A DNA stretch of 35,366 bases from a virus. Each line of letters opens with the position of its first letter. The stretch's first letter is position 1. The translations under genes and the position numbers were made by a program. Location: IMG/VR virus record IMGVR_UViG_3300021406_000027, positions 1 to 35,366 of that record; one strand, 5' to 3'. The notes under the pieces were generated by a model that ran no database searches, was not told where the DNA came from, and saw only the letters and a list, made by a program, of their open reading frames with translations. Shown in pieces: positions 11,725 through 35,366 of this stretch.

Positions 11725-11730
11725 TTGTTG

Positions 11731-11814
11731 CGGAAGGTAGAGGTGTCGATCCCCCGGGATGATTACCGCTTGGATGCTTTCAAGGCAACCTGGCTGGCCG
11801 CAGCCGTACCTTCC
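11731..11814 (-). tRNA. tRNA-Ser(TGA)
   Basis: Acceptor GGAAGGT (11814-11808) pairs perfectly with ACCTTCC (11738-11732); discriminator G11731. The anticodon loop CTTGAAA gives TGA, with one T-T mismatch in the stem. Long class II variable arm. The T loop begins ATCGA, with A in place of the universal T54. Confidence 0.78.
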
Positions 11815-16232: not shown

Positions 16233-16277
16233 TTGTTACCTCTTCGTGGGGGCGACCTGGGTGGTGCCGTCGAACTT

Positions 16278-18659: not shown

Positions 18660-19442
18660 ATGGCTTACCAACTCGGCTTAAAAGCACCCGTACCCGGCGC
18701 GATCCCGTTGCGACTCGCAACCTACCTCGACTTTATGAAACTCCCAACACCACCCGCAGTGTTCGGTCACTACGACCTGATCGACAACTGGGAAATGCTG
18801 GGCAACGACGAATGGGGCGATTGCGCTTTTGCGGGCGCATGTCACCAAGAGATGCTTTGGACTAAAGAGGGCGGCCACGAAGCCGACTTCAACTCGCCAG
18901 TAGACGGGTTCGACAACGCGGCCCTAGCCAACTACGGCGCGGTCACCGGATTCGACCCCAGCGACGGCCCGTCCGGGGACAACCCAACCGACCAAGGCAC
19001 CGCAATCAGCGACCTCGCCGACTACTGGGCGCACAGCGGCCTGGTGGACTCCGACGGCACCCGCCACAAAGTGGCCGCCATTGTCGACCTAAACCCCGGC
19101 GACCTGCGCGAACTGTGGGTAGCCACCTATCTGTTCCAGTCGGTGGGGCTTGGGTTCGCCGTCCCGCAGTCAGCTATCCAGCAAGCCCAGCAGGGAGAGG
19201 TCTGGGATGTTGTCCCGGGCAGCCCGATCGTCGGCGGCCACTACGTCCCAAGCGTGGGCCGCGTAGACGGCGGCAACGGCATGGTAGTGACCTGGGGGCA
19301 GCTCCAAGAATTCACGCCACGGTTCTACCAGAAATACAATAACCAGGGCATTGTTTGCTTGAGCGAGGAAATGCTCGTCAACATGAAGTCGGTCGACGGC
19401 TTCGATGACAAGACCTTGAGGGCCGACCTTAGGGCGCTCTAA
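18660..19442 (+). CDS. Cysteine-peptidase-like protein, 260 aa
   Basis: WGDCAFAGACHQEMLW (Cys about 55) resembles the nucleophile helix of papain/C39-type peptidases, and VGGHYVPSVGRVDGGNGMVV carries the expected His, followed by a W-G-Q. The 260 residues have no signal peptide. Just upstream of LysA, so it could be an extra peptidoglycan or protein hydrolase, but the fold is inferred from motif spacing only. ATG18660 has no clear ribosome site. Confidence 0.6.
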   Translation: MAYQLGLKAPVPGAIPLRLATYLDFMKLPTPPAVFGHYDLIDNWEMLGNDEWGDCAFAGACHQEMLWTKEGGHEADFNSPVDGFDNAALANYGAVTGFDPSDGPSGDNPTDQGTAISDLADYWAHSGLVDSDGTRHKVAAIVDLNPGDLRELWVATYLFQSVGLGFAVPQSAIQQAQQGEVWDVVPGSPIVGGHYVPSVGRVDGGNGMVVTWGQLQEFTPRFYQKYNNQGIVCLSEEMLVNMKSVDGFDDKTLRADLRAL

Positions 19443-19921
19443 TGTTCGACGCTCTACACCGCGCCTACAAAGCATTCACATCAGGTGTCGTTCCAGCACA
19501 CGACGTGACCGAGTCGCATCGATACACCGTCCATTACCCGGACCACCAGCCGAGACAGTCGGATCCACACTATAAGGATTTCGAGGCGTACCGGCGACGC
19601 ACTAAGGCGACCGCAAAATGCTCAGTCGGTGAAGCGCGAGGGGACTTCACCGACTGCCAACCCGGCCCCAACTCCTGGCCCACCGGCCTCGAACTACACC
19701 ATGACCACGTCGAATTCGCCCTAGAAAATGCTGTAGACCTGGCGTTATTAGACAAGGTTTACCCCGGTGTGTCGAACCCTGACGAGGTCGGAGCGTGGGT
19801 AGAGTCCGCTGACAACCTCGTATGGCTCTGCACGTTCCATCACCGCGGCCACGGCGGCGTACATGTAGCAAGCAGCTCTGATTACGAGGCGGAACGCTTC
19901 ATTAAGGGGCTGATCAGCTGA
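19442..19921 (+). CDS. HNH-type nuclease-like protein, 159 aa
   Basis: ATG19442 overlaps the preceding stop (TAATG). CSVGEARGDFTDCQPGPNSW carries possible zinc ligands; LELHHDHVEFALENAVDL, then NLVWLCTFHHRGHGGVH matches the HNH arrangement (paired His, an Asn and a following His). Sits between two lysis-type genes, like a free-standing HNH insertion. Confidence 0.7.
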   Translation: MFDALHRAYKAFTSGVVPAHDVTESHRYTVHYPDHQPRQSDPHYKDFEAYRRRTKATAKCSVGEARGDFTDCQPGPNSWPTGLELHHDHVEFALENAVDLALLDKVYPGVSNPDEVGAWVESADNLVWLCTFHHRGHGGVHVASSSDYEAERFIKGLIS

Positions 19922-21297
19922 TGGTTTTGCGTTCAAGCATGGAGTTCGCCAAGCGGGTGTTTATCGACCGGTTGACCACTGACCAGTACGGCAGTCTCGT
20001 GCAGCCGGACATCGGGAACTTTGATGAAGGCCCGGGCGACGAGTACGACTACGGCGGGTGCTACGACCCAGACAACTTGGGTATCGGGGCGGACTGTTCT
20101 GGTTCGGCGGGCATCTTCCTGGGTGCCGCGCTTCTCGGGCCGGCTGGGATGTCGTGGGATCGGCAGTTCACCACGGAAACGTTCTGCAACTGGCCGCCGG
20201 GGAACTGGCGGCAGACAACGCAAGAGGACCTGGTCAATAACTACTATCCGGCAAAAGTTTGCATTATGCACGGTGGTGGTGGACCGGATTCTCACATGAA
20301 CTGCAGCGTCGATGGAATTGTGATGGAATCCAACGGCGATTACGGAACTTGCACTTTGGGGCATGGGGCGATCGCCCAGGACGATGATTATTGGAATGAC
20401 TGGTGGGTTCTTGATGAGCCGGTCGTTGAGGACACCACGTATCGGACTCCTATGGTTTATCCGCAGGGTTTTGATTATGCGGTGGGTCCTATTTCTGGAG
20501 CTGATCTGAAAGCTGCCGGGAAGTCTTTTGTGTGTCGGTATGTGACGCCGTCGTTGCAGTGGAAATGTTTGCAGCCGGGCGAGTTCCAGGATTTGGTTAG
20601 CAATGGGATTGTTGTGGTCTTCAACTATGAGGGCGAAGGCAACGGGATGTTGAACGGGAACGCGCAGGGCATTCAGGATGCGCAGGAGGCGTTGAATTAT
20701 ATCCGCAGCTTGCCTGGTGTGCCGGCGGGATATAATCCGGTCGTTTATTTTAGTTGCGATTTCGATGAGTCACCTGATCAGGATGGCGCGCTGCAGGACT
20801 ACCTGGCGGGGTGCGCGCAGGTGTTGGGTGGTGTTCAGTATGTGGGGATTTACGGTGGGTATTGGCCGCTTTCACGCATGTTGGATGCCGGGGCGTGCAC
20901 CTACGCGTGGCAGACGGAAGCGTGGAGCGGCGGCAATCTTGATGCCCGCGTAAACATAGTCCAGCGCAACGGCGTGGGCTTCCAGAATTTCGACGGTGTT
21001 CAGTGTGATGCTGATGAAGCACACACCGATAATTTCGGGCAGTACTTAGGAGGAGATATGCCGGAGAGTACAGCGGACCTGATCTTGGACCAGCTGGCCG
21101 GCCCGCTTAACACGGACGGTACTCGTGGTTGGGCGCAGCTGGGGAACCGGTCGATCGTGGACTTCCTGGCCCAGGTTGTGGGGCCTGCGTTGACGCAGAT
21201 ACAGGCCACCGTCACCGCGGGGAATTCGAAAGCCGCCAAGGTTGATGTGCCGGACACCGAACACGATCAGTCGAAGATCCCGCCGAAGAAAAAGTAG
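19921..21297 (+). CDS. lysA: Endolysin LysA: peptidase plus DUF1906 glycoside-hydrolase-like domain
   Basis: 458 residues. An N-terminal NlpC/P60-like peptidase domain has Cys about 59 in GADCSGSAGIF and His about 125 in GPDSHMNCSVDG, a common mycobacteriophage LysA N-domain. The second domain (about 186-380) is DUF1906-like: YPQGFDYAVGPIS, SFVCRYVTPS, NGIVVVFNYEGEGNG, YNPVVYFSCDFDES, GVQYVGIYGGY and AWQTEAW, a TIM-barrel related to glycoside hydrolase 25. A helical C-terminus ends in a Lys-rich tail and TAG. No signal peptide, so holin-dependent. Cuts host peptidoglycan at lysis. Confidence 0.85.
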   Translation: MVLRSSMEFAKRVFIDRLTTDQYGSLVQPDIGNFDEGPGDEYDYGGCYDPDNLGIGADCSGSAGIFLGAALLGPAGMSWDRQFTTETFCNWPPGNWRQTTQEDLVNNYYPAKVCIMHGGGGPDSHMNCSVDGIVMESNGDYGTCTLGHGAIAQDDDYWNDWWVLDEPVVEDTTYRTPMVYPQGFDYAVGPISGADLKAAGKSFVCRYVTPSLQWKCLQPGEFQDLVSNGIVVVFNYEGEGNGMLNGNAQGIQDAQEALNYIRSLPGVPAGYNPVVYFSCDFDESPDQDGALQDYLAGCAQVLGGVQYVGIYGGYWPLSRMLDAGACTYAWQTEAWSGGNLDARVNIVQRNGVGFQNFDGVQCDADEAHTDNFGQYLGGDMPESTADLILDQLAGPLNTDGTRGWAQLGNRSIVDFLAQVVGPALTQIQATVTAGNSKAAKVDVPDTEHDQSKIPPKKK

Positions 21298-22147: not shown

Positions 22148-22387
22148 GTGGATCCCGATGCGAAGGAATGTTTCAAAACTGCTTCTAATTTGTTGCAGCA
22201 GGTGACTGGGTGTCAACCATCGGTGGCGGCGCTGATCGTGGAGCAGATCGCGTTGGGCACGATCCGCTGGGAGCCGGACAAGCCGGGCGCGCAGCATCAG
22301 CGGAACGCGGAATTGTTCGCCGCCTGGTCGGCAGGTTTCGAGGCACGCGACAAGCTGGACTCCAACTTAAAGGACGTGAAGCAGTGA
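22148..22387 (+). CDS. Small helical protein, 79 aa
   Basis: GTG22148 with AAAGGAAGG upstream. Helical throughout (DAKECFKTASNLLQQVTG, then SVAALIVEQIALGTIRWEP and AELFAAWSAGFEARDKLDS). Overlaps the LysB start by 4 bases (GTGA), so translationally coupled to it. Confidence 0.6.
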   Translation: MDPDAKECFKTASNLLQQVTGCQPSVAALIVEQIALGTIRWEPDKPGAQHQRNAELFAAWSAGFEARDKLDSNLKDVKQ

Positions 22388-23256
22388 CCAGTTCCATTCC
22401 GATGGTGCAGTTGATGCATCAGCTTGACGGTACGACGTGGAATCCGGTGGGCACACTGTTCACTGTCGACGGGACCGTGTATCCGGGTGCGCCGGGGATA
22501 CCGTTACCGTACGCGGGTTTCGCTTCCGACATTGCGTGGGGTTTGATGACGGTCGCTGACGGTATGTGGTTGTGGGATCCGATCGCTTACCCGGCGGCGG
22601 TGTCACCTATGGGCGCGTCGGTCAGTGTTGGGCGGGCGAACCTGGTGGCTTCGATCATGGCGACCCCGGCGGGTTGGCCGATCGTCATGTCTGGTTACAG
22701 TCAGGGCGCGATGGTGGTGGACCAGTGCTGGGTGGGTGACTTCCTGAACCCGTCGGGTGTCCTGCACAACCGGCTGGGTGATGTGAAAGCGATCTTCAAC
22801 TATGGGGATCCGATGCGCTGCCCGGGGGTGTCGAACGGGAACGCGTTAGCGGGCATCCCGGTGCCCGGCGAGTCGAACGGGCAAGTTACCGGCGGGATCG
22901 CCGGTCCGCTTTGCTTGACCGCCGCCCAGACACCCGACTTTTTCTTCTCCACGAACCTGCCCGGCGACCTGTACGGGTCGGCCCCGGTTGGGGCTAATCC
23001 TTGGACAGCGGAGTCGAAAGTCGGTGCCGTCGAAACAAACATTTTCAACATCGTGCAAAAGGCCACGTTCCTTGACATCATTTCCATCGCGAAGGATTTG
23101 TTGACCCCGATCGCCACCGTCGAGGGAATCATCAACGGTCTGGTGTTTTTCTCCGCCGGCCAGAATGCGCCGCATTGGCAGTACGGACCTTACGTCGGTG
23201 CCGCTGTCGGTTGGATGGTCGACACAGGCCTCTCATTGATTGGACAAGCCGCGTGA
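22384..23256 (+). CDS. lysB: LysB-type mycolyl-arabinogalactan esterase (cutinase/serine-esterase fold)
   Basis: 290 residues from GTG22384. PIVMSGYSQGAMVVDQCWVG contains the serine-esterase elbow G-Y-S-Q-G (Ser about 106), as in mycobacteriophage LysB and cutinases. IFNYGDPMRCPG follows as in LysB; DLYGS supplies the likely Asp and APHWQYGPY the His. LysB releases mycolic acids from arabinogalactan and completes lysis of the outer mycomembrane. No signal peptide, as in most LysB proteins. Four-base overlap with the preceding gene. Confidence 0.88.
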   Translation: MTSSIPMVQLMHQLDGTTWNPVGTLFTVDGTVYPGAPGIPLPYAGFASDIAWGLMTVADGMWLWDPIAYPAAVSPMGASVSVGRANLVASIMATPAGWPIVMSGYSQGAMVVDQCWVGDFLNPSGVLHNRLGDVKAIFNYGDPMRCPGVSNGNALAGIPVPGESNGQVTGGIAGPLCLTAAQTPDFFFSTNLPGDLYGSAPVGANPWTAESKVGAVETNIFNIVQKATFLDIISIAKDLLTPIATVEGIINGLVFFSAGQNAPHWQYGPYVGAAVGWMVDTGLSLIGQAA

Positions 23257-23498: not shown

Positions 23499-25130
23499 GT
23501 GCGCAAAGTGTACTGGTGGAGAGAAGGTTGTACCGGGCACGAACACGTCGGCGGCAATAATTTCGGTGACGAACTCGTCCCGTTGATGCTACAGCTGCTG
23601 GAGGTGCGGCAGTTCGAATGGTCGCCTCCGGAGGATTCAGATTTCGTTATCACCGGGTCGGTTCTTGAGCATTTGCCGAGGGGCTGGGCGGGCACTGTGT
23701 GCGGCGCGGGGATGCTGCACGAAGGTTCGAAAATCAACGTAGGCAAGGCCACCGTTTTGGGTGTGCGCGGGAAGCTGACGCTGGAACGTTTGAAGGGTTT
23801 GAAGAATCCTGAGGATGTGGTGTTAGGCGATCCGGCTTTGCTGGTTCCGGCGTGGATACGCCAGTATCAAGGCAAATGGGATCTCGGTATCATTCCGCAC
23901 TGGTCGGACAAGGAGTTGTTCCAGCGGTACCCGTACGGGCATTTGATTGATGTACGGAAGCCTCCGCTTGATGTTGTTGAGGACATCGCTAAATGCAAGC
24001 GCGTCATCAGCTCTAGCCTGCATGGGATTATCGTGGCGGATGCTTACGGCATCCCGCGGCAAGCGGAGTTGTTCCCGGACGCTTTGAAACGTAAGCAGCA
24101 TGAGGGCGGCGACTTCAAGTGGCTGGATTACGCCTCCAACTTTGATGGCGACCCGCATTTCGGTGAACTGTGGAAAGCTCCGCACGATCGGGTGGCGGCT
24201 ATGCAGCGGGATCTGCGGCAGATGCTGGCCACTGCGATGAGCATGGCCCCGCCGTTGCACACCGCGCCGGAACCGGTGCGGGAGAAGAGCAAGTTTTTCT
24301 GCTGGATGCCGAAGAAAAAACCTCAGGTGTCGTTGTTGGTGCCGTTCCGCGACGACAACGAGCACCGCGTCAGGGTGTGGCATTGGCTGAAGCGGTACTG
24401 GGAGGCGAACCTTAGCTCGTTGGAGATCATCGAGGGCCACGACCCGCATTACCCTTTTTCCAAAACCACAGCGGTGAATGATGCCGCTAGTCGGGCGCGG
24501 GGCCGGATCTTCGCGATCATCGACGCCGACACCTACCTGGACGCGAGGTGTTTGCAGCAGTATCTCGACAACATTGATGCGGCGGTGAAGTCCGGGAAAA
24601 GGATGTGGTACATCCCGTACAACCATCTGTATCGGTTGTCGGAGGAGGCCACGAGGGCTTGTTTGGGGTGTGATCCGGAGGAGACGTACATGGTTCCGCA
24701 TCCTCCGCCGCCGAGTTGGTTGGAAGATGCGGGTATGGCTAAGCATGATGCTGCCGCGAAGTCTTCGGGGCATCAGTACGGTGCGTTGGCTCAGGTGGTG
24801 CCGCGTGAGGCTTTCTTCATGGTGAATGGTATGGATCCGCGGTTCCGTGGCTGGGGCGGCGAGGACGTGAGTTTTATGAACGCGGTGGATACGGTGTATT
24901 GCCAGCATTGTTTAGGTACTAATGATGTGGTTCACATGTATCACGCCCGTCCGGGTATGTCGTGGGATACGCGGCGTTGGGTGGGGCAGCCCGATGTTGT
25001 GGCTAACTCGCGTTTGACGCAGCGTTACACGATGTCGAAGTCGGAGCCAGGTTTTATGCGGGCACTCGGGAGTGAGTATGAGCCGCCGCGGGATGTTTTG
25101 AAGAAGCACTGGTGGACGCGGGATGCGTGA
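23499..25130 (+). CDS. Fusion: polysaccharide pyruvyltransferase-like domain plus GT-A/GT7C glycosyltransferase
   Basis: 543 residues. Residues 1-260 are pyruvyltransferase-like: GGNNFGDELVPLMLQLL, DFVITGSVLEHL, LGVRGKLTLERL, VVLGDPALL, and CKRVISSSLHGIIVADAYGI. The second half is a GT-A fold: QVSLLVPFRDDNEHRVRVWH, KTTAVNDAASRARGRIFAII and DADTYLD (the D-x-D site), ending with a GT7C signature FRGWGGEDVSFMNAVD. No signal or membrane segment. Ketal-pyruvyl capping plus glycosyl transfer in one chain suggests modification of one surface glycan. GTG23499 has no strong ribosome site. Confidence 0.82.
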   Translation: MRKVYWWREGCTGHEHVGGNNFGDELVPLMLQLLEVRQFEWSPPEDSDFVITGSVLEHLPRGWAGTVCGAGMLHEGSKINVGKATVLGVRGKLTLERLKGLKNPEDVVLGDPALLVPAWIRQYQGKWDLGIIPHWSDKELFQRYPYGHLIDVRKPPLDVVEDIAKCKRVISSSLHGIIVADAYGIPRQAELFPDALKRKQHEGGDFKWLDYASNFDGDPHFGELWKAPHDRVAAMQRDLRQMLATAMSMAPPLHTAPEPVREKSKFFCWMPKKKPQVSLLVPFRDDNEHRVRVWHWLKRYWEANLSSLEIIEGHDPHYPFSKTTAVNDAASRARGRIFAIIDADTYLDARCLQQYLDNIDAAVKSGKRMWYIPYNHLYRLSEEATRACLGCDPEETYMVPHPPPPSWLEDAGMAKHDAAAKSSGHQYGALAQVVPREAFFMVNGMDPRFRGWGGEDVSFMNAVDTVYCQHCLGTNDVVHMYHARPGMSWDTRRWVGQPDVVANSRLTQRYTMSKSEPGFMRALGSEYEPPRDVLKKHWWTRDA

Positions 25131-25362: not shown

Positions 25363-25590
25363 ATGGCTGACTCCATCGACATCGCCACGCTTAAGGCTGA
25401 GGTTTTGTCCGCTCTGACTGATGTCGAGACTGTTCTCGCTGACGCTTTAGCGGTAGCTAATTTGGTGAACGAACTGCCCGACCTTCCGGGTGTGACCACG
25501 GTCAAGAAGTTCGTCGCCGACGTTACCCCTTGGGTTGAGAACGCCGAGACTGTTCTCAAAGATGTAGTCACGTTCCTCGATGGCGCGTAG
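25363..25590 (+). CDS. Small helical protein, 75 aa
   Basis: CGAAAGGAAA before ATG25363. Acidic and Val/Leu-rich helices (IATLKAEVLSALTDVETVLA; VKKFVADVTPWVENAETVLK). No transmembrane stretch. Overlaps the holin start by 11 bases, so probably a lysis-region partner. Confidence 0.6.
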   Translation: MADSIDIATLKAEVLSALTDVETVLADALAVANLVNELPDLPGVTTVKKFVADVTPWVENAETVLKDVVTFLDGA

Positions 25591-25915
25591 TTTCCGGCTG
25601 CGGTCCGCCGTGGCTAGTCTGACGTCGGCGTCGTTTTGGATTGATGTCGCTGAGCGTGCTGTGCGTTCGTTCGCTCAGGGCACGCTGGCGGCGATGGGTG
25701 TGGGTGCGGCGAACTCTGTTCAGCCGGGCTTGACGGTGTCGGTGCCGTGGCATGTGGCGCTGGTCGCTGGCTGTGTCATGGGGGTGCTGTCGGTGCTGTC
25801 GTCGTTGGCCAGCACTCCGGTCACCACCTCCGACCCTTACACGGGGTCGTTTCTTGCCGCGCCGCCGAACCAGGCGGAGCATGTCCGGTCTTTTTGTAGC
25901 TTCGGGAGGAGCTGA
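25580..25915 (+). CDS. Holin, r1t-type
   Basis: 111 residues. ASFWIDVAERAVRSFAQGTL, then AAMGVGAANSV and WHVALVAGCVMGVLSVLSSL give two transmembrane helices with a short polar turn; FWxDxxERAxRTFAQ is the typical start of r1t-family holins of actinophages. The charged C-terminus contains DPYTGSFLA. Makes membrane lesions that release LysA. Confidence 0.85.
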   Translation: MARSFRLRSAVASLTSASFWIDVAERAVRSFAQGTLAAMGVGAANSVQPGLTVSVPWHVALVAGCVMGVLSVLSSLASTPVTTSDPYTGSFLAAPPNQAEHVRSFCSFGRS

Positions 25916-26171: not shown

Positions 26172-26600
26172 ATGTCGGTCATGGCGTGGCTCCCGTACGT
26201 GCCGGCGGCTCTGACTTTTTTGGGTGTCATTTTGGCACCGGAACTTGGGCGTCGGGCGGGCAGGAAGCAGCTTCAGGCGGCGGTGGTTGCGGCTAACGCT
26301 GAGATGAAGAAGGCTGTGGCCGATGAGCGGGAGTCGGCTACCAACGAGTGGGCGAAGATCACTGAGGCTATGCAGCGGTGGAACGAATCGTTGGCCACTC
26401 GTCTGGCGGAGGTGGAGAAGCGGCTTGGTGATGCTGAGATCCGGTCGGCTGCTGCTGAGCTGAAAGCTGACCTGGCTGAGAAGCATTACCGGATCGCGAT
26501 CGCCTATGTTCGGCAGGTTATCCGCTGGTTGGAATCGAACCGTCCGGGTGAGAACTTCCCGAAGGCTCCGCCGGAGCTGGAAGACGATCTGCTTCCGTAG
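26172..26600 (+). CDS. Membrane-anchored coiled-coil protein (second holin candidate)
   Basis: 142 residues with GAGGAGTAGC before ATG26172. One N-terminal transmembrane helix (WLPYVPAALTFLGVILAP) is followed by a long charged helix (AAVVAANAEMKKAVADERES; MQRWNESLATRLAEVEKRLG). The form matches LysZ/second-holin-like proteins next to r1t holins in actinophages. It could be a pinholin, a spanin-like linker or an antiholin; not decidable here. Confidence 0.65.
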   Translation: MSVMAWLPYVPAALTFLGVILAPELGRRAGRKQLQAAVVAANAEMKKAVADERESATNEWAKITEAMQRWNESLATRLAEVEKRLGDAEIRSAAAELKADLAEKHYRIAIAYVRQVIRWLESNRPGENFPKAPPELEDDLLP

Positions 26601-26716: not shown

Positions 26717-27847
26717 GTGGACCTAGCGTTACCTCCTGAAATATCTTCCGTCCAGATCTACACCGGGCCTGGTGCGTCGCCGCTTGTCGCTGCTGCGACA
26801 GCGTGGGCCGACACCGCCGCCGAGTTGGAGCAGTTCTCCACCAGCCAGACAGCTATCACCGGTGCCATTCCGTGGTTCGGGCCGTCCGCGCAGGCCATGT
26901 CGGTGGCCAGCGCCGGAATCTCCAACTGGGCCATGGATTCAGCTATTCAGGCCGCTTCGATGGGTGTCGGAGCGACGATGGCCGCGGCTGCTTTCGAAAC
27001 TGTGTACGCCACGATCACACCACCGTTTGAGGTGTTCGAGAACCGGACCAGGTTAGCGATGCTGATCGCCACCAACATTTTGGGGCAGAACTTCCCGGCG
27101 ATCGCCGCCACCGAGGCCCAGTACGGGGAGATGTGGGCGCAGAACATCGCGTCGATGTCCGCGTACCAGGTGTCATCCGTCGCGGCCACGAACCCGTTGA
27201 ACGGGTTCGCCGTGTTGCAGGAGTTCATGTCCGGCCTGTCCGACATCTTCGCGCCAGGATCCAACACAGCCACAACCGGTTTGCCTGGCCTTTTGAACCT
27301 GATCAGCGGCGCATCCGGGTCAGCGTTCGGGACGTTCCTGAACAACAACTTCATCTCAACGTCGGTGCTGAACTCGCTCGGATCGTCCGGCTTCTACATG
27401 CCGTCGCAGTGGCTGTACCCGCTGATCGCCCTGTTCGAAGGCGCTCAGACTTCCAGCTCAGGTTCCAGCTCGGGCAGCTCTTCGGGTGGTGCCGTCTTAC
27501 CGCCCGGGGTTTCACCGTATCCGGGATGGAATCAGGACCCCTACGTTGCCCCAACCCCGGGACCGGTGACGGGACGCCTGGGATGCGGCGCACGTATCGG
27601 CGGCCTCACCACCCCGCCCACCTGGGCGGCCCCACAAGCCCCGGGCGCACCAACGGCGCTGCGCCCGGCCACAAATACACCATCCGACGCCGCCCCCGCG
27701 GCGGAGGACTCGACACCACTACTGGGCCTGGGTGGACTCGCCGGCCTAGCCGGATTACGTGGCGGCACACCACCCAAAACGCAAAAACCGCCGCCGGAAT
27801 ACGGCATCAAATCAACAGTGATGCCTAAGCATCCACTCGGAGGATAA
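26717..27847 (+). CDS. PPE-family protein, PPE-SVP type
   Basis: 376 residues from GTG26717. The N-terminus VDLALPPEISSVQIYTGPGA aligns with classic PPE starts (Pro-Pro-Glu at 6-8), then AATAWADTAAELEQF, PWFGPSAQAM, FETVYATITPPFEVFENRTR and TEAQYGEMWAQNIASMSAYQ, all hallmarks of the 180-residue PPE domain. A Ser/Gly linker precedes GGLTTPPTWA (SVP-like motif) and a C-terminus IKSTVMPKHPLGG typical of the subfamily. PPE proteins usually pair with a PE protein and leave through ESX type VII secretion; no PE gene is adjacent. The frame is open upstream to ATG26657 and GTG26627; GTG26717 was chosen by homology, without a clear ribosome site. Confidence 0.9.
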   Translation: MDLALPPEISSVQIYTGPGASPLVAAATAWADTAAELEQFSTSQTAITGAIPWFGPSAQAMSVASAGISNWAMDSAIQAASMGVGATMAAAAFETVYATITPPFEVFENRTRLAMLIATNILGQNFPAIAATEAQYGEMWAQNIASMSAYQVSSVAATNPLNGFAVLQEFMSGLSDIFAPGSNTATTGLPGLLNLISGASGSAFGTFLNNNFISTSVLNSLGSSGFYMPSQWLYPLIALFEGAQTSSSGSSSGSSSGGAVLPPGVSPYPGWNQDPYVAPTPGPVTGRLGCGARIGGLTTPPTWAAPQAPGAPTALRPATNTPSDAAPAAEDSTPLLGLGGLAGLAGLRGGTPPKTQKPPPEYGIKSTVMPKHPLGG

Positions 27848-27850: not shown

Positions 27851-28060
27851 ATGAAAGACGAAACGGCGCTCGAAGCCACCCAGGTGTGGGTGGTGGAGTA
27901 CACGTCCATAGGCAGCTTGGCGCGTACCTCGTTCTTTTGGAGCGAGACGCACGCCCAGCAGTGGTTCGACTTCTGTGCAGCCGACGCCACGAAGTCAGGT
28001 AAGGCCGCGCCGACGCTGTACGTGTCCGGTGTGAGCTTCACCGAAGTCACCCCAACGTAG
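27851..28060 (+). CDS. Small protein, 69 aa
   Basis: TCGGAGGATAAA before ATG27851, 3 bases after the PPE stop. TQVWVVEYTSIGSLARTSFF, then ETHAQQWFDFCAADA and SGVSFTEV: strand-helix-strand. Coupled to PPE upstream and the NlpC-like gene downstream; it is not an EsxG- or PE-like sequence (no WxG, no PE). Confidence 0.6.
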   Translation: MKDETALEATQVWVVEYTSIGSLARTSFFWSETHAQQWFDFCAADATKSGKAAPTLYVSGVSFTEVTPT

Positions 28061-28662
28061 TGAACCGCCGCCGCTTCCTCGGCCTTGTGGGGCTGACGAT
28101 GGCGGCTGCGGTCACCGCGTGGGAGTTCGTGCCGCAGATCAAACAGGCTGCTGGTGCGACGCGGCAGTTCTTTACCCGCGGCACGTATGCGGCGTGGGAC
28201 CGGCCTGGAGTGCCGCCAACTTTAGTTATGGTAGCTGTACTATTGTTGGCGCTGCTGTTTCCGCAGCCGGCGCACGCAGCCGGCAACGTTGGCGCGGTCG
28301 CTCGGGCGCAGTCGGCGGTCGGCAGCGACATGTTCGGCCCGTACGGGTGCGGCATGTTCGTCGCCTGGGCGTACGGCATACCGGGCATCGGCTACTACAC
28401 CGCCTCCGACTTCTACCAGGCCATGCAACACGCAGGCCGGATCCATCCGCCGGCTGATCCCGCACCGCCCGGATCGATTGTGTTCTCCAACGGCGCTGAC
28501 GGCGGACACGTCGACATCGCGGTTGGTGACGGAACCTACATTTCCGGGGGCGTCATGGGCTTCTCGCCCGGCTACGGCAATGGCCACAACGTTCAGGTCC
28601 TGCCCGTCCCGAACACCTCACCTGGTGCGGTGTATCTGGGTTGGAGCGATCCGCCGTGGTGA
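28060..28662 (+). CDS. Secreted NlpC/P60- or CHAP-like hydrolase with Tat-type N-terminus
   Basis: 200 residues. RRRFLGLVGLTMAAAVTAW is a twin-arginine signal (R-R-x-F-L) with a hydrophobic core. A second hydrophobic stretch (TLVMVAVLLLALLFPQPAHA) ends like a signal-peptidase site at about residue 73. The mature domain has Cys about 97 in YGCGMFVAWAYG and His about 150 in GADGGHVDIAVGDG, then GGVMGFSPGYGNGHN, a cysteine peptidase/amidase arrangement. A signal-bearing hydrolase would act outside independently of the holin. GTG28060. Confidence 0.72.
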   Translation: MNRRRFLGLVGLTMAAAVTAWEFVPQIKQAAGATRQFFTRGTYAAWDRPGVPPTLVMVAVLLLALLFPQPAHAAGNVGAVARAQSAVGSDMFGPYGCGMFVAWAYGIPGIGYYTASDFYQAMQHAGRIHPPADPAPPGSIVFSNGADGGHVDIAVGDGTYISGGVMGFSPGYGNGHNVQVLPVPNTSPGAVYLGWSDPPW

Positions 28663-29769: not shown

Positions 29770-29976
29770 TTATTTCTGGTGTGTTCTTGCGCCTTGGGCC
29801 AGCAACCCGGGCGCGTGTTCCTTCGCGTGATGCCCACAGAACTGCAGATCCAGACCGCTGGCCAGCCGAGCGACGCTGGTCGCTGCTGCCCCGCACCGAT
29901 CGCAACGTTCAAGCCGAGACTCGTGCGTATGCTGGGCCAGCAGCTCCGGTGCCTCAGTAACAGTTACGTCGGTCAT
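29770..29976 (-). CDS. Actinobacterial small zinc-ribbon protein, 68 aa
   Basis: The core LERCDRCGAAATSVARLASG, then LDLQFCGHHAKEHAPGLLAQ matches a small family widespread in actinobacteria: CxxC, a short beta loop, CGHH. Function unknown, zinc binding likely. ATGA overlap with the next gene upstream. Confidence 0.7.
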   Translation of the reverse strand: MTDVTVTEAPELLAQHTHESRLERCDRCGAAATSVARLASGLDLQFCGHHAKEHAPGLLAQGARTHQK

Positions 29977-30230
29977 AACCCCATCCCTTTCGGGTTGATC
30001 GGATGGACCATGGTGTCGTCGGTGAGAGCGCCGGTGGAGTCTAGCGTCACCGCCAATATCGCCGCCGCATGCAGCGCCTCAGCACCGACAACGCCGTCAT
30101 TCAACGGCACCGACAGCACCGCCCACCTGCCGTCTGCGCGTTCATCGAGCGCGAACTCCCAGCTGGCTCCGTCATACCGTAGAGCACGCGCCGCGCGTTC
30201 CACGAATTCGTCGTCTACAGGTAGAACCAT
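29973..30230 (-). CDS. Hypothetical protein, 85 aa
   Basis: ATG30230 overlaps the stop of the IS110-like gene. FVERAARALRYDGASWEFAL, then ADGRWAVLSVPLNDGVVGAE; looks like a helix followed by a small sheet. Unknown. Confidence 0.55.
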   Translation of the reverse strand: MVLPVDDEFVERAARALRYDGASWEFALDERADGRWAVLSVPLNDGVVGAEALHAAAILAVTLDSTGALTDDTMVHPINPKGMGL

Positions 30231-31240
30231 CAGTTCTCCTTGGTCCGGGCGGTGCGGGTGGCCGCGATCCGTTTCGACACCTTCTTCGCTACGGATTCGG
30301 TAGCTGCATCATGCTCGCCGGCGGCGGCTTCTTTGTGGAGACGCTCCGCCTCTTTCCACAGATCTTTGAGGAACGTTTTAGCGACGATCCGCAGGGCGCG
30401 CCGGTTCTTGTGGCCGTCCCGCAGGTCCGACCCGACCGGGGCAGGTTTACCTGGTGTGCCGCACGGCGGGCACGGATGGGTGTGCACAGCGTCCTCGTAT
30501 TTAGCGCGGGCCTGGTCGTACACCACCCGGTACGGTGAGCCTTTACGGTTCCGTTCGGGCTGCGCGACCGCGATCATGCACCGCTCAGCGATAAGGTAGA
30601 CCCGCATTTTGGCTTCGTCGTTCCAGTTGGCCAGCTCACCGCGGGTGCGTCGCCGCCCGGCACCGTCAACGGGTGCGAGGCCGCAGTACGAATACAGTTC
30701 GTACAGGCCGCGGGGCCGGTCGTCGCCGTCGTGCCAGTAAGGGTCGCCGAGCGCGCCGAGTAGGCGGGCGAACTGCTTGGCCCCGACACCGGTGATCGGC
30801 TGCGCCCACGTCCACAACGGGTGGCTTCTCATGACCCGTTCGAGGTTCTTTATCGCCATGTCCAGGGAGTCGTCCAGCGCTTCCACTAGGGCTTCCAGCC
30901 TGCGCACGTCGGGGTGGTCGGTCGGCAGCCCGAACCCGCGGTGTTTCCCGTCGCTGTCCGCTTCGGCCCTGGTCAGCTGTCGCAACCTGTTTTGGTTTGC
31001 GTTGCGGACGTTCTCCAGGTCGTCCACAACATCGGCGGACAGCCGCAGGAACGGCGACCGCAGGAAAGAGCCGGGGACAGCGGCAACGGTCTGGGTATCA
31101 CGCACGTTCTGGCCGTCCCTGGGGCTTGTGGGTGCAGGCAGTATCTTCAGGCTTGGCCGCCCCGGCAAGTTGACCTTGGTTGACGTTCGTTGCTTGGCTG
31201 GGGCGACGATCTTGGCGGGTTTCTTGGCAGGGTTGGTCAT
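30230..31240 (-). CDS. IS110-type transposase C-terminal domain protein
   Basis: 336 residues. A basic, Pro-rich N-terminus and a helical region (LEALVEALDDSLDMAIKNLE) lead to the Transposase_20 (IS110/IS116/IS902) pattern: TWAQPITGVGAKQFARLLGA (helix-hairpin-helix), LYSYCGLAPVDGAGRRRTRG, NWNDEAKMRVYLIAERCMIA and GHKNRRALRIVAKTFLKDLW. The N-terminal DEDD/RuvC-like domain of true IS110 transposases is not evident, and no element ends are seen. It is phased into the operon on both sides, so it looks domesticated rather than mobile. Repeat copy I lies in its 5' coding part. Confidence 0.75.
   Translation of the reverse strand: MTNPAKKPAKIVAPAKQRTSTKVNLPGRPSLKILPAPTSPRDGQNVRDTQTVAAVPGSFLRSPFLRLSADVVDDLENVRNANQNRLRQLTRAEADSDGKHRGFGLPTDHPDVRRLEALVEALDDSLDMAIKNLERVMRSHPLWTWAQPITGVGAKQFARLLGALGDPYWHDGDDRPRGLYELYSYCGLAPVDGAGRRRTRGELANWNDEAKMRVYLIAERCMIAVAQPERNRKGSPYRVVYDQARAKYEDAVHTHPCPPCGTPGKPAPVGSDLRDGHKNRRALRIVAKTFLKDLWKEAERLHKEAAAGEHDAATESVAKKVSKRIAATRTARTKEN
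31071..31122 (+). repeat. Repeat family copy I (inside a coding region)
   Basis: CCGGGGAC-A-G pairs with CCGTCCCTGG (9 of 10), inner TGGGTATCACG, 7 bases, TGGCC. It lies in the first 60 codons of the minus-strand IS110-like gene but keeps the plus orientation. An alternative arm pairs 31119-31125 with 31159-31165. Confidence 0.7.
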
Positions 31241-31740
31241 GGTAGGTCCTCAGGGTCTAGTTCGCGGGCGGTTTCAACACCGGCTTTACGCATCCGCAGA
31301 GCCAGGTCTTCATAAAATTCGGCTTGTGCGACAACCAGCGCCGCGTCTTTGCGTCGCGCTACAGCGCAGAAGTCCAGGTCGTCGGCGGTGCAGTCACCCA
31401 CCAACTTCCACCCGGTTCCGGTGCAGATTTTGGACCGGAAAATGTTCTCCCATTTCACCGAGCGGATAGCTGCGACGTTCGCTGACACCGACTGACGTGT
31501 TGACGGTGGCCGCCGCATCGCGGCGATAGCGGTGTTGCGTTCGAGGCGCAGCAGGTCGGGAACCACCATCCGTAGGGCCTGCTCGTAGAACGCGAGGACC
31601 ATTTCGGGTGGCGTGTTTTTGACGACCGCGGCTGCGATGACGTCGGGTTGGGAGCGTGGCCGTCTAGCGGCGATGTCCCGGACGAATGAGCGTAGTTGCA
31701 TTTCCGGGTCTTCCTGGTTTTGTTTGAGTGCTGCTGTCAT
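31237..31740 (-). CDS. Hypothetical protein, 167 aa
   Basis: ATG31740, apparently leaderless behind TATAAT. Helical (FVRDIAARRPRSQPDVIAAA; EMVLAFYEQALRMVVPDLLR), then KICTGTGWKLVGDCTADDLD and a final helix. ATGA overlap with the IS110-like gene, so the two are co-expressed; could be its partner. No family recognised. Confidence 0.65.
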   Translation of the reverse strand: MTAALKQNQEDPEMQLRSFVRDIAARRPRSQPDVIAAAVVKNTPPEMVLAFYEQALRMVVPDLLRLERNTAIAAMRRPPSTRQSVSANVAAIRSVKWENIFRSKICTGTGWKLVGDCTADDLDFCAVARRKDAALVVAQAEFYEDLALRMRKAGVETARELDPEDLP

Positions 31741-31746
31741 ACATAA

Positions 31747-31752
31747 ATTATA
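31747..31752 (-). promoter_or_regulatory. Leaderless promoter -10 TATAAT (extended)
   Basis: TATAAT (31752 to 31747), preceded by TGA (extended -10) and followed by TTA, ends seven bases before the ATG at 31740. Weak or no -35. It should drive the 29351-31740 minus operon. Confidence 0.65.
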
Positions 31753-31777
31753 TCACACCCGGGTGCTATTTGGAACT

Positions 31778-31957
31778 TTACGTGAACCAGCTATCGCAGC
31801 ACTGACACTTGAGGCAGTGCGACTCCCGGCTGCATTCGCCACACGGATCGTCAACGTCAACTACTCGCGGAATGCCGAGGTAATCAAGCAGGCCTGGTTG
31901 CTTCGCGTCGATGAACGCGGCCATCTCGGCGCGCCGCTCAGGTGTCGGACGCATCAT
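31778..31957 (-). CDS. Cysteine-rich small protein, 59 aa
   Basis: ATG31957 (GAAGGA upstream) or GTG31978. A helix (RRAEMAAFIDAKQPGLLDYL) then DPCGECSRESHCLKCQCCDS, seven Cys/His in 20 residues, a clear zinc cluster. It overlaps the hydrophobic ORF at 31938-32054. Confidence 0.5.
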   Translation of the reverse strand: MMRPTPERRAEMAAFIDAKQPGLLDYLGIPRVVDVDDPCGECSRESHCLKCQCCDSWFT

Positions 31958-32054
31958 GGCCGTAAAGATCCTTCGCACGGGTGATGTTCAAACCGGCACT
32001 CACCATGCCAACCATGCCTACACATAACACAAACACACAAACACACACGACCAC
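31938..32054 (-). CDS. Possible membrane peptide, 38 aa
   Basis: GTG32054. The first 20 residues are Val/Cys hydrophobic (VVVCVCVFVLCVGMVGMV), like a signal or transmembrane segment, encoded by a GT-repeat tract at about 32010-32050. The repeat could create hydrophobicity by chance. Confidence 0.3.
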   Translation of the reverse strand: MVVCVCVFVLCVGMVGMVSAGLNITRAKDLYGHDASDT

Positions 32055-32065
32055 GACGGAACCAG

Positions 32066-32236
32066 CTAAGCGTCATCATCTGGTGCCTTGTGTCCGCACT
32101 TGATGCAGTAGCCGCCGGCGTCGGTGAACAGGCTCGGGTACACCATGTGACAATCGGAGAGCTGTTCGATGCTCCAACGCCACCAGCGGATATGCTCCTG
32201 CATCAGCACGGTACGCGTCCTGCATTTCTTACTCAC
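32066..32236 (-). CDS. Small protein with zinc-site Cys, 56 aa
   Basis: GTG32236 in a GTGA overlap with the upstream gene. KKCRTRTVLMQEHIRWWRWS, then SDCHMVYPSLF and GGYCIKCGHK: Cys/His spacing fits a zinc ribbon. Ends in TAG. Confidence 0.55.
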   Translation of the reverse strand: MSKKCRTRTVLMQEHIRWWRWSIEQLSDCHMVYPSLFTDAGGYCIKCGHKAPDDDA

Positions 32237-32406
32237 GATGTCAGGCGCAGTTCAACGCGGTGGACCCTCGTGGTGGTATGGACATTCGGATCTCCGGTGG
32301 TAACTTCCACTCGGTATGCTGTGGGCCGCACATCATCGATACAGTCTGGCGATACTCCCAGCAACGCGGCCATCGCGTCGTGTAAGCGCGCTTGATCTTT
32401 GCTCAT
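32233..32406 (-). CDS. Small protein, 57 aa
   Basis: ATG32406 with GAGGAGAACC upstream, the clearest start in this stretch. A helix (DQARLHDAMAALLGVSPDCI) then beta strands (YRVEVTTGDPNVHTTTRVHR). Repeat copy J lies 18 bases before its start. Confidence 0.6.
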   Translation of the reverse strand: MSKDQARLHDAMAALLGVSPDCIDDVRPTAYRVEVTTGDPNVHTTTRVHRVELRLTS

Positions 32407-32423
32407 GGTTCTCCTCGTTTGGT

Positions 32424-32472
32424 CCGGGGCGGCGTCGGTCGTTGGGAAACATTCCGGCTATGGCCGCCCCGG
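32424..32472 (+). repeat. Repeat family copy J
   Basis: CCGGGGCGGC/GCCGCCCCGG arms (32424-32433, 32463-32472), inner TTGGGAAACATT, 7 bases, TGGCC. Intergenic, upstream of the 32406 minus gene; plus orientation like all others. Confidence 0.75.
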
Positions 32473-32480
32473 TAGCTTAA

Positions 32481-32588
32481 CTATGAATAGATGAAGTAGG
32501 TAGGTTTAATGTGGACCCGGAGCCGTGCGGACGCCCTGTGGTCCCGTAGGACATGGCCTTTATGGCACTGCGCCCCGGGTCCAAGCAT
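32481..32588 (-). CDS. Possible small basic protein, 35 aa
   Basis: ATG32588, right after the stop of the 32694 gene. MLGPGAQCHKGHVLRDHRAS, then ARLRVHIKPTYFIYS. No strong ribosome site; phasing is the only support. Ends in TAG. Confidence 0.35.
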   Translation of the reverse strand: MLGPGAQCHKGHVLRDHRASARLRVHIKPTYFIYS

Positions 32589-32589
32589 C

Positions 32590-32694
32590 TTAGTCGACGC
32601 GGCCTTCGCGTGTCCACGCCTCCGGTTCGCCGACGGTGATCGAGTTGATCTCATCTTTGAGACCAGCTGGTACCTCTACAGTGTCGCTGCCCAT
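32590..32694 (-). CDS. Small acidic protein, 34 aa
   Basis: ATG32694 is preceded by a perfect AGGAGG at ideal distance. MGSDTVEVPAGLKDEINSIT, then VGEPEAWTREGRVD. Short but with one of the strongest ribosome sites in the window. Confidence 0.5.
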   Translation of the reverse strand: MGSDTVEVPAGLKDEINSITVGEPEAWTREGRVD

Positions 32695-32722
32695 TTTTCC
32701 TCCTCTCGTTATGTTGAAGTGG

Positions 32723-33859
32723 TCAGGAAATCTGTGCGGCGTATTGCTGCAGCGCCTCGAATTGTTGTTGCAAGGTAGCTAGCACCTCGGCGGGGGCCGG
32801 GGATGTAATGTTTTCGATAGCTTCAGCTAACTCGGTCAACGCTGCTTGCACCTCCGGGATGCCGAGACCTGCACGTAACGGTCCAGAAGAAACTTGCATA
32901 GGAGACTCCGGCGGCGGTGTTTTAGGTACGGTGTTACGAGTCAGCCACCACCATCCGGTGCCATCACCGAGTGGCCTGTTCTGATGGTCACGCCGCCGGG
33001 ATTCGCCGAGGATGCTGGGAGCGTGGACCAGCGGTCCTTTCGCTAACAGGATGCCGTCGGGCAGGACAGCGATGTTATGTGAGGTGTGGGCGGTGCCGTA
33101 GATCGGGACCCGCGACGACGGCGGCCAGTGGTGTCCCCTCTCGGCTGGGCCGGTCACCTGGCCGAAGATCTCACCGCCCAAGGTTTCAATGTCAGCGTCG
33201 GTGAGGTTAGATTCGACGGCGAAGATGTCGCCCTGCCGTTCGACCTGTATGCCGCCGGCTTCGGCGTCCACCACCGATGGTGGTTTCAACGCTTCGCGGG
33301 CCTCGGCGATGCCGCTGACCGGGTGGGGTAGGCGGCACAGGAAGTACAGCGGCGGCTCTTCCTGATCGTCGTACCCGGACAGGTAGTAGCGGTCGCCGAT
33401 CGTGAACACCGACTCCATCGCTTCGCTGGTTTCGATGACTTTCGGGGCCGGGTCTTTAGGTGATCGTGCTTGGCGGAACGCTTCCCTGGCGTAGGGGAGC
33501 ACGGGGGCGTGAGCCTTTTTGGCTTCATGCATGAACCGGTCGCGCCAGTATTGCGCCGGGATTGTCGGGTGCGAAGCCATCGGTGTGTCCAGGCTTAGGA
33601 GGTAGACGCCGTTGTCGCGTTGCGCTAGCTGCCATCCGCCGGTTCTGCGGTACAGCTGGTGGTTCACGATGTACAGGTAGTTTCTGTAGTTCGTGACCCA
33701 ACGTCCGTCGTCTTCTTCTCCGCGCAGGTATGCGCGGAGACATTCGTCGGCTTCTTTGAAGTAGTCCGGTTCTTCGTCCGGTTGCGCGTCGGGTTCCGGT
33801 TCGGGTGACAGCCCAAGAACCCCGCGGATGCGGTCCCGCATGTAATCGTAGAACGGCAT
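32723..33859 (-). CDS. Hypothetical protein, 378 aa
   Basis: ATG33859 with GGGAGGTGG upstream and TATAAT about 38 bases before. Acidic Pro/Glu region near the start (PEPEPDAQPDEEPDYF), then WVTNYRNYLYIVNHQLYRRT, VFTIGDRYYLSGYDDQEEPP, and RVPIYGTAHTSHNIAVLPDG; a helical C-terminus (VQAALTELAEAIENITSPAP, then ATLQQQFEALQQYAAQI). Largest unknown in the right end; virion-associated or regulatory cannot be told apart. Confidence 0.7.
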   Translation of the reverse strand: MPFYDYMRDRIRGVLGLSPEPEPDAQPDEEPDYFKEADECLRAYLRGEEDDGRWVTNYRNYLYIVNHQLYRRTGGWQLAQRDNGVYLLSLDTPMASHPTIPAQYWRDRFMHEAKKAHAPVLPYAREAFRQARSPKDPAPKVIETSEAMESVFTIGDRYYLSGYDDQEEPPLYFLCRLPHPVSGIAEAREALKPPSVVDAEAGGIQVERQGDIFAVESNLTDADIETLGGEIFGQVTGPAERGHHWPPSSRVPIYGTAHTSHNIAVLPDGILLAKGPLVHAPSILGESRRRDHQNRPLGDGTGWWWLTRNTVPKTPPPESPMQVSSGPLRAGLGIPEVQAALTELAEAIENITSPAPAEVLATLQQQFEALQQYAAQIS

Positions 33860-33896
33860 GCCACCACCTCCCGTTTAAGCCAGTCCGCTACACTAA

Positions 33897-33902
33897 ATTA
33901 TA
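33897..33902 (-). promoter_or_regulatory. Promoter -10 TATAAT (minus)
   Basis: TATAAT (33902 to 33897) followed by TTA, as at 18564 and 31747. A weak -35 (TAGACC) lies 16 bases upstream. Leader of about 30 bases to ATG33859 with a good ribosome site. Confidence 0.55.
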
Positions 33903-33921
33903 CGCTACCCGGCTGGCAGGT

Positions 33922-34146
33922 CTAGCACCAGTCGAAACGATACGAATCAGGAATCTGAAACGCCTCCGACTCCTGCCCAGGAAACAAGCCCAGCATCAAC
34001 ATCAACTTGACCGCATCATCAGTGTCGGTCGCGTAGTGAGCTACCGTGCGCCGGGCCGCGGCGCGCTGCTCCTCACCGATATCCCCAACGATGCCGGGCA
34101 GCGGCGGAACAGTGCGACCGATCTGCTCTCCATTAGCGAAGCTCAC
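33922..34146 (-). CDS. Small protein, 74 aa
   Basis: GTG34146. GIVGDIGEEQRAAARRTVAH, then YATDTDDAVKLMLMLGLFPG and a Phe/Tyr-rich end. I have a sense of similar small actinobacterial proteins but no function. Stands alone with 73 bases to the next gene. Confidence 0.5.
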   Translation of the reverse strand: MSFANGEQIGRTVPPLPGIVGDIGEEQRAAARRTVAHYATDTDDAVKLMLMLGLFPGQESEAFQIPDSYRFDWC

Positions 34147-34219
34147 GCGGTGTATCCAGAAGTCATGCTCGGACTGTATACCACCGCACTGGCATCAACC
34201 TACCTTATTCAGATAATCC

Positions 34220-34447
34220 TCAGATCAGTTTCAAATGCTCAGGCTTGTACGCTACCTCGCTGTGGTCGCCGATCTTCTTGGAGTGCACCACCCGCACATA
34301 CACCCAGTCGGCACCCGCGCCTTTGATGTGCCCGATCTTGCCTTTGTACCCGAACTGGGGGTGCAGGATCCGGACATGCCGGCCACGTTTCCACGCCTCA
34401 CCTACGCACCTGCGCCGTTTGCCGGGATCGTAGCGTCGTTCGGCCAT
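34220..34447 (-). CDS. KOW-like small protein, 75 aa
   Basis: ATG34447. A basic start (AERRYDPGKRRRCVGEAWKR) followed by GRHVRILHPQFGYKGKIGHI, then KGAGADWVYVRV and VAYKPEHLKLI: the G-x-x-V-x-I ... G-x-x-G-x-I/V layout of a KOW/SH3-like barrel. Such domains bind RNA or ribosome-associated factors. Overlaps the preceding gene by 46 bases in another frame. Confidence 0.6.
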   Translation of the reverse strand: MAERRYDPGKRRRCVGEAWKRGRHVRILHPQFGYKGKIGHIKGAGADWVYVRVVHSKKIGDHSEVAYKPEHLKLI

Positions 34448-34572
34448 GGGTCGTCTCTCCAATCTGAGCGCCGCCGCAACAACGGATTCGGGATACGCGC
34501 ATCGCTCTTCGGGTGATACCAATATTTAGCTTGCGGATTCTGTTCAAAGAAACGCTTCGCGACCGGGTTCAT
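34402..34572 (-). CDS. Small protein, 56 aa
   Basis: ATG34572. NPVAKRFFEQNPQAKYWYHP, then KSDARIPNPLLRRRSDWRDD; basic and aromatic, ending in TAG. Its 3' third overlaps the KOW-like gene start, so one of the two may be mis-started. Confidence 0.45.
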   Translation of the reverse strand: MNPVAKRFFEQNPQAKYWYHPKSDARIPNPLLRRRSDWRDDPWPNDATIPANGAGA

Positions 34573-34580
34573 CCCCTCAG

Positions 34581-34922
34581 TTAACTATCCCGGGGTGACC
34601 TGGCGGGAAAGCTCATGTTAATGTCTTCGTCTGGTGTCCACGCGCAGTCGGTGTCGTGCCCGTCCTCGAGCGTGCAGGTATACGGAACACCGTGCTCGTC
34701 GGTGCGCGCCTTCCAGCACAGGAACGGCTCCTGAGGCTGCCAGTGGATCCGCGCCGCCACCAGCTGCGGGCGGTCCGGGCGACCCAACTCCTCGTACCGT
34801 TTCAGAAGGAACTTGTACATGCTGCGGGCCGCTTCCTCATCCCGGTACTCGAACACCTTCACCGGTGTTCCGGCCTCGCCCCAGCGGACACCCCACTTGA
34901 TGCCGCCGGCGTACCCGCTCAC
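34581..34922 (-). CDS. Hypothetical protein, 113 aa
   Basis: GTG34922 in a GTGA overlap with the metallophosphoesterase stop. GGIKWGVRWGEAGTPVKVFE, then EAARSMYKFLLKRYEELGR and FLCWKARTDEHGVPYTCTLE, DGHDTDCAW. Possibly metal-binding at the C-terminus. Unknown. Confidence 0.55.
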   Translation of the reverse strand: MSGYAGGIKWGVRWGEAGTPVKVFEYRDEEAARSMYKFLLKRYEELGRPDRPQLVAARIHWQPQEPFLCWKARTDEHGVPYTCTLEDGHDTDCAWTPDEDINMSFPARSPRDS

Positions 34923-35366
34923 AGCGTCTCCGGCGTCAGGAGCATGGTGTTCTTTCCGAGGTTGGTGGCGTCGCAGTCCAAACCCAGGAACCTGGTGCCG
35001 CCCATGAACCGCTCGTAGCAGCGGTGATAGTGCCCGTGAGCCCACAGCTTCGGACAGGTGGCGTCGTAGACGCGGCGCACTTTGTCGCGGTGCACCGACG
35101 CCCCGTACAGCATGTGGTCCGGGAATTCACCGCGCACCTGAGTCTTGAAGTCGGCTCCCACGCCAGGAATGTCAACCCCGGTCGGGCAGTCGTGAGCGAC
35201 CACCACATCAACCGGAACGCCATCATCGCGGGACGCGTACTCGATGTCGTTCAACGACAACTCCTCACCGGCCCACCAGCCCACGTTCTCGGTACGCATG
35301 TACCTGTCCACCGAGAACGCACCACCCAACGCCATGAACCGTTTACCCCACCACGTCCACCGGAAC
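34919..35366 (-). CDS. Calcineurin-like metallophosphoesterase, 5' end outside the window
   Basis: The frame is open to the window edge, so the N-terminus with the first metal motifs is missing. Visible are RFMALGGAFSVDRYMR, an E-N-V-G-W-W-A-G-E-E segment, VDVVVAHDCPTGVD (third metal motif type) and KLWAHGHYHRCYERF (the G-H-x-H motif), then LGLDCDATNLGKN. This matches small phage metallophosphoesterases that hydrolyse phosphodiesters, proposed to act on DNA ends or cyclic nucleotides. Confidence 0.85.
   Translation of the reverse strand, partial: FRWTWWGKRFMALGGAFSVDRYMRTENVGWWAGEELSLNDIEYASRDDGVPVDVVVAHDCPTGVDIPGVGADFKTQVRGEFPDHMLYGASVHRDKVRRVYDATCPKLWAHGHYHRCYERFMGGTRFLGLDCDATNLGKNTMLLTPETL

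Follow-up and report, generated by a model that had tools for sequence, protein, structure and literature searches.

The viral DNA fragment IMGVR_UViG_3300021406_000027 from the IMG/VR database (linear, 35,366 bp; hereafter the window) encodes an intact, full-length PPE protein of the PPE-SVP type (26717-27847, + strand). About 12 distinct phages and prophages of mycobacteria carry a PPE gene in their lysis region, and the encoded proteins appear to form one phage-specific lineage, which goes beyond the single gene envisaged in an earlier note made from the letters of the window alone. Computation supports the family assignment and fold of this protein, its location in phage DNA, its repeated occurrence in lysis cassettes and its membership of a phage-specific lineage. 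As to its function, we tentatively favour, as not far from an even possibility, that the phage PPE protein is produced late, forms a pair with a PE protein of the host, is exported by the ESX-5 system and has its effect in or on the mycomembrane at about the time of lysis.

The window PPE comprises 376 amino acids from a GTG start, and its identification is based on Pfam, AlphaFold/Foldseek and full-length relatives in other phages. An N-domain (residues 1-165) is followed by a low-complexity middle and a C-terminal SVP region ending PEYGIKSTVMPKHPLGG. The N-domain matches PF00823 (PPE) with 144.9 bits (cut-off 26, E 3e-42, positions 4-162 of 165), and the C-terminus matches PF12484 (PPE-SVP) with 32.3 bits (cut-off 23, E 2e-7). 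The open frame reaches 5' to 26627; PPE homology starts only at the GTG at 26717, one codon 5' of DLALPPEISS, and no clear ribosome binding site was found before this codon. Residues P6, P7 and E8 as well as W53 and G55 of the WxG motif are invariant in an alignment with 39 relatives. The position of the GxxSVPxxW signature reads GGLTTPPTW, in which G, P and W are retained and SV is replaced by TT. The complete N-domain claimed in the earlier note stands and its SVP-type C-terminus passes the Pfam cut-off with a degenerate signature. The PF12484 cut-off is also passed by the PPEs of the IMG/VR elements L179, L156, L149 and L151 and missed by those of L002, L004, L152 and L157. An AlphaFold model, with 40 aligned relatives as input, has a predicted local distance difference test score (pLDDT) above 90 across most of residues 1-150 and below 50 across most of residues 217-350. 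When the modelled N-domain was compared with the PDB using Foldseek, PPE15 of the PE8-PPE15-EspG5 complex ranked best (5xfs_B; E 3.2e-9, 45% identity over 161 columns, TM-score 0.82 normalised by target length), followed by PPE4 and PPE41. The model gave no significant match in a viral structure library, no PPE family of PHROGs was matched, and the Pfam scan identified neither a toxin domain nor a spanin family.

Lysis-region PPE genes were identified in the IMG/VR elements L002, L004, L149-L153, L156, L157 and L179, in truncated form in L161, and in prophages of the bacterial genomes G123 and G207. As judged from match coordinates and identity, L149, L150 and L153 seem to have one PPE sequence in common, and the total is therefore about 12 distinct elements. 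Two positions recur, either 0-16 bp 5' of a C39-peptidase/LysA gene pair or directly behind holin and coiled-coil genes. The former is found in L149, L150, L151, L153, L156 and L157, where the PPE gene lies directly 5' of the C39 gene and LysA, and in the G207 prophage (L144), where it lies 5' of the C39 gene; this PPE-C39-LysA coupling comprises seven phages and prophages with five distinct PPE genes. In L002 (66 kb), L004 (59 kb), L152 and L179 (114 kb), the PPE gene follows LysB and membrane/coiled-coil genes, as in the window, and the G123 genome contains two near-identical prophage loci with the PPE gene between the lysis genes and the integrase. The PPE genes of L144, L149, L151, L156 and L157 are separated from their neighbours by 3-4 bp upstream and 0-16 bp downstream, as expected for translation together with late neighbours, and the open reading frame (ORF) 3-4 bp 5' of the coupled PPE encodes a long tail-like protein or a phage HNH protein for four of the five PPE genes. 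Among 80 IMG/VR contigs retrieved in a scan for the C39 gene, 24 also encode LysB and 10 of these a PPE; none of the 56 contigs without LysB does, a contrast that largely reflects host range. In L161 (8847-9734), a deletion has apparently joined the 111 N-terminal PPE residues in frame to a phospholipase-D-like protein, which illustrates that the PPE can be lost naturally. The PPEs of the window, L002 and L149 had no tblastn match in 50,697 named phage records. A further candidate, L158 (9078-11497), contains an integrase gene together with PE, PPE and an Esx-like start; it was not counted, as it looks like a host ESX-type locus on an element that is mobile or misclassified. Separately, a serine-recombinase-type gene appears to split LysB in the L151 prophage (15898-16509).

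A tree was built from the full-length sequences of 11 phage and 50 host SVP-type PPEs. The phage sequences cluster behind a branch with a Shimodaira-Hasegawa-like approximate likelihood ratio test (SH-aLRT) support of 99, and the only host sequences among them are two proteins that form a pair and whose genes lie in ordinary host surroundings. None of 500 label shuffles was as clustered as the phage PPEs, and forcing all 11 into one clade gave a log-likelihood higher by 5.4, with an approximately unbiased test p-value (p-AU) of 0.768. The window protein sits on a long branch and its exact placement is unsure. An early tree of the N-domain from three phages gave no decisive grouping. In another N-domain tree, the L002 and L004 PPEs pair at 100/100. 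With a leave-one-out profile of the region behind the N-domain, eight of ten phage PPEs score above all 145 host PPEs, including that of the window (56.8 bits vs 49.0 bits), and those of L002 and L004 fail this test. A PEYG motif near the C-terminus is present in 9 of 11 phage rows, L179 being one more, and in none of 166 host rows; the two nearest host PPEs carry LEYG at this position. Close phage pairs have a ratio of non-synonymous to synonymous substitution (dN/dS) of about 0.5 (0.154/0.312 for L149/L151), indicating constraint together with fast change, and for L149/L151 dN is 0.24 past residue 165 compared with 0.06 in the N-domain. Recent capture from a host PPE was rejected, as the host PPEs in the set reach at most about 51% N-domain identity to the window protein and the phage copies group together. 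The comparison with host PPEs suggested in the earlier note groups the phage copies with one another, joined by a single host pair, and computation supports the view that they constitute one lineage with its own C-terminal region, apart from the sampled host PPEs save that pair.

PPE proteins travel as PE-PPE pairs, and a phage PPE would normally need a host PE and an ESX system. As noted earlier for its immediate vicinity, the window PPE has no PE partner, and PE (PF00934) is absent from the whole window record and from L002, L004, L149-L153, L156, L157, L161 and L179. The G207 prophage encodes a PE_PGRS protein (L144 508-1230, - strand; PF00934 6e-27, PGRS 7e-10) between its tail and lysis genes, on the strand opposite to the nearby prophage PPE gene. 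A PE_PGRS gene beside a coiled-coil gene in the G242 prophage (L103) was disregarded, because its L,D-transpeptidase and mce neighbours make an origin from host DNA at the attachment (att) site probable. In this regard, two distinct prophages, L103 (7039-8130, G242) and L145 (8898-9989, G219), both adjoin an L,D-transpeptidase gene, suggesting a common integration site. With 42 and 53 PPE matches, the genomes hosting PPE-bearing prophages are in the range expected of slow growers. G219, whose C39-containing prophage lacks a PPE, has 4 and the other genomes with PPE-less prophages have 21-36, so these counts are compatible with PPE-rich hosts but do not discriminate.

Several properties of host PPE proteins make an action on the envelope conceivable. 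EspG chaperones determine ESX system specificity (PMC5311947), ESX-5 is confined to slow growers and influences outer-membrane permeability (PMC4418733), the outer membrane is the location of ESX-5 PPE substrates (PMC10597459) and PPE51 influences membrane integrity (PMC12607722). Subfamily and nearest structure point to the use of a host PE and ESX-5 by the phage PPE, and its action in the outer membrane is suggested by analogy with known PPE localisation. We envisage that a member of a phage-dedicated PPE-SVP lineage, encoded among the lysis genes of phages that infect slow-growing, PPE-rich mycobacteria, would be transcribed late together with LysA, LysB and the holin. The protein would join a host PE protein, be brought to ESX-5 by the host chaperone EspG5 and arrive at the mycomembrane or cell surface, where it could weaken or open the outer membrane or aid lysis proteins, thereby complementing LysB. 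The barrier targeted by PPE and LysB would be the one that spanins remove in Gram-negative hosts. The stronger form of this proposal, in which a dedicated phage PPE hijacks PE, EspG5 and ESX-5 within the lytic programme to disrupt the mycomembrane, as a type VII-delivered lysis protein and mycobacterial counterpart of spanins, is speculative and we regard it as rather unlikely.

A number of observations weigh against an export-dependent action on the mycomembrane at lysis. Permeability rises on loss of PPE51, not on gain (PMC12607722), and export through ESX may take long compared with lysis. Late expression of the window PPE is deduced from gene order, and no PE is supplied by the phage. The C-terminal hydropathy of phage PPEs is not above that of host PPEs, with no special membrane-spanning signal. 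The PPE is absent from 14 of the 24 contigs encoding both C39 and LysB; missing in many relatives and truncated in L161, it is therefore not essential. Furthermore, the PPE gene of the window, G123, L002 and L004 is found at the 3' end of the lysis genes, a place that also harbours morons and genes for lysogenic conversion, and in L002 and G123 it is near the integrase.

The earlier note had offered superinfection exclusion, envelope remodelling before lysis and lysogenic conversion as options. The wider evidence, in particular PPE genes 0-16 bp from C39-LysA pairs, favours envelope action around lysis; exclusion and conversion suit the operon position less well, as co-transcription with lysis genes should leave the PPE silent in a lysogen. 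Superinfection exclusion or surface change, whereby a PPE displayed on infected or lysogenic cells blocks the receptor or DNA entry of competitors, would be in line with the surface exposure of PPEs as ESX-5 substrates, the patchy distribution of the gene among relatives, its proximity to the integrase in G123 and L002, and the fast divergence of the C-terminal half in L149/L151, as surface proteins exposed to shifting selection would show. However, lysogenic expression would require an own promoter for a gene packed into the late operon (L144, L149, L151, L156 and L157), and a single lineage is retained in the lysis cassettes of otherwise diverged phages; we consider exclusion unlikely. More doubtful still is that the PPE is a host-benefit gene carried by temperate phages (nutrient uptake, envelope or niche trait). 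Sequenced strains hold prophage copies, host PPEs serve nutrient uptake and the G207 prophage also encodes a PE_PGRS protein, but such lysogenic conversion is at odds with placement in the late operon and with a phage-specific lineage and C-terminal region, unlike recent host copies. Equally doubtful is an export-helper role, in which the PPE would build or stabilise a route through the outer membrane for another phage product, for example LysB, the C39 peptidase or the exported hydrolase-like protein encoded at 28060. Such a role has been proposed for PPEs in carrying proteins across the outer membrane (PMC10597459) and would fit the direct coupling of the PPE gene to the C39 gene in seven phages and prophages and, in the window, to a gene for an exported protein; yet the downstream gene varies (C39, a 69-amino-acid ORF or a membrane protein) and no cargo is constant. 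Finally, an assembly or binning artefact, or host DNA beside a prophage, is highly improbable, even though PPEs abound in host genomes and the window is a metagenomic-type fragment, as phage genes flank the PPE on both sides, the same arrangement recurs in independent contigs and prophages, and the tree places the window PPE closest to other phage PPEs.

Among known systems, the closest is the phiMAV_1 prophage of M. avium 104, for which Fan et al. 2014 noted the PPE MAV_0790 between tail genes (MAV_0795) and lysis genes (MAV_0786 cutinase and MAV_0787 glycosyl hydrolase) (PMC3986857). MAV_0790, compared here by description only, is likewise a PPE in a mycobacterial prophage at the position seen in L149-L157; in contrast, it was described as a lone unexpected gene with a suggested role in pathogenicity, and no lysis-cassette link, lineage or other phages were reported (PMC3986857). 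Our literature text search for phage-encoded PPEs, which did not cover subscription papers, gave no match. Host ESX-5 PPE-SVP proteins of the PPE15 and PPE18 type share the PPE N-domain, WxG motif, SVP Pfam match and PPE15 fold, whereas the phage lineage has PEYG near the C-terminus, a degenerate SVP motif, no adjacent PE and late-gene neighbours. The PEST cassettes of M. abscessus prophages also encode substrates of host type VII secretion; they comprise a polymorphic toxin, immunity protein and WXG100 protein, adjoin the integrase, are expressed in lysogens and occur in the M. abscessus-chelonae group (PMC10654092). Unlike these, the window PPE has no toxin domain in Pfam, is accompanied by neither an immunity gene nor a WXG100 partner, is flanked by genes for a coiled-coil and an exported hydrolase-like protein, and lacks a PE. 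LysB and Gram-negative spanins share the proposed outer-membrane role at lysis, and LysB is encoded in the same cassette as the PPE; by sequence, however, the PPE is neither an enzyme nor a spanin and would travel via ESX-5, so the analogy is one of role only.

What is new is that PPE-SVP proteins recur in phage lysis regions as a component dedicated to phages, compared with the lone prophage PPE of phiMAV_1 known earlier. Most PPE proteins still await a functional assignment, and a phage-dedicated lineage in lysis cassettes provides a natural, selectable test of the effect of PPEs on the outer membrane. Nearly all sequenced mycobacteriophages come from isolation on M. smegmatis, which is why little work has addressed how the mycomembrane of slow growers is breached by phages. 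The lineage points to lysis genes particular to phages of slow-growing mycobacteria and suggests possible use of ESX-5 by phages. M. smegmatis lacks ESX-5 (PMC10597459), and dependence on this system is a reason why isolation on that species may miss such phages.

In the window, the + strand between 18660 and 28808 encodes, in order, a C39-like protein, LysA, a small protein, LysB, a pyruvyl-transferase/glycosyltransferase, an r1t holin, a transmembrane coiled-coil protein, the PPE, a 69-amino-acid ORF and an exported protein. The C39-peptidase-like protein (18660-19442, +; phrog_19005 9e-30) is a lysis-cassette marker whose homologues adjoin the PPE in related phages. LysA (19921-21297, +) is an endolysin with an Rv2525c-like glycoside hydrolase domain (PF08924 2.4e-17; endolysin PHROGs), and LysB (22210-23256, +) is a mycolylarabinogalactan esterase (phrog_102 endolysin 1e-33) with weak matches to cutinase and PE-PPE hydrolase domains. 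Of the holins that the earlier note placed beside the PPE, one is a clear r1t-type holin (25580-25915, +; PF16945 3.6e-11, phrog_443 holin 2.5e-16) and the other is a membrane-anchored coiled-coil protein (26172-26600, +; phrog_3413 1e-12; Fionnbharth gp34 and Boilgate gp30). The latter shares 46% alignment identity with L002 9360-9887, also located 5' of a PPE, and the K4-type phages Fionnbharth and Boilgate encode it right behind the holin but have no PPE at that place. A scan of the coiled-coil alignment against genomes found no relative; a broader search, genome by genome, detected prophages that encode the coiled coil and no PPE. Gaps of 116 bp upstream and 3 bp downstream border the PPE gene. 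The 69-amino-acid ORF (27851-28060, +) starts 3 bp past its stop and matches no known family. It is followed by the neighbour previously called a secreted hydrolase (28060-28662, +), which is a predicted exported protein with an N-terminal RRRF and hydrophobic segments; its hydrolase likeness is weak (CHAP 0.03 and NLPC_P60 0.039, both below cut-off), and no relative was found among named phages. To the right of the PPE, minus-strand genes (29973-35335) match phrog_4285, 4604, 29643 and 1649 and M. smegmatis phages. With phage-family genes on both sides, lysis genes upstream and these downstream, the PPE gene therefore lies within the phage genome, as the earlier note assumed, and neither in a host chromosomal flank nor outside the att sites.

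The window also contains features unrelated to the PPE. Between LysB and the holin, a fused polysaccharide pyruvyl transferase and GT2/GT7C glycosyltransferase (23499-25130, +) was identified, which the phage possibly uses to modify surface glycans. A tRNA-like gene with anticodon CUA (3295-3363, +), named tRNA-Pyl by ARAGORN, is located near tRNA arrays (49-668 and 11345-11814); as 5 of 43 predicted window genes end in TAG, general TAG recoding is unlikely. Furthermore, the phage encodes an R2K-clade ATP-grasp protein (12700-13566, +), a peptide-ligase-like enzyme.
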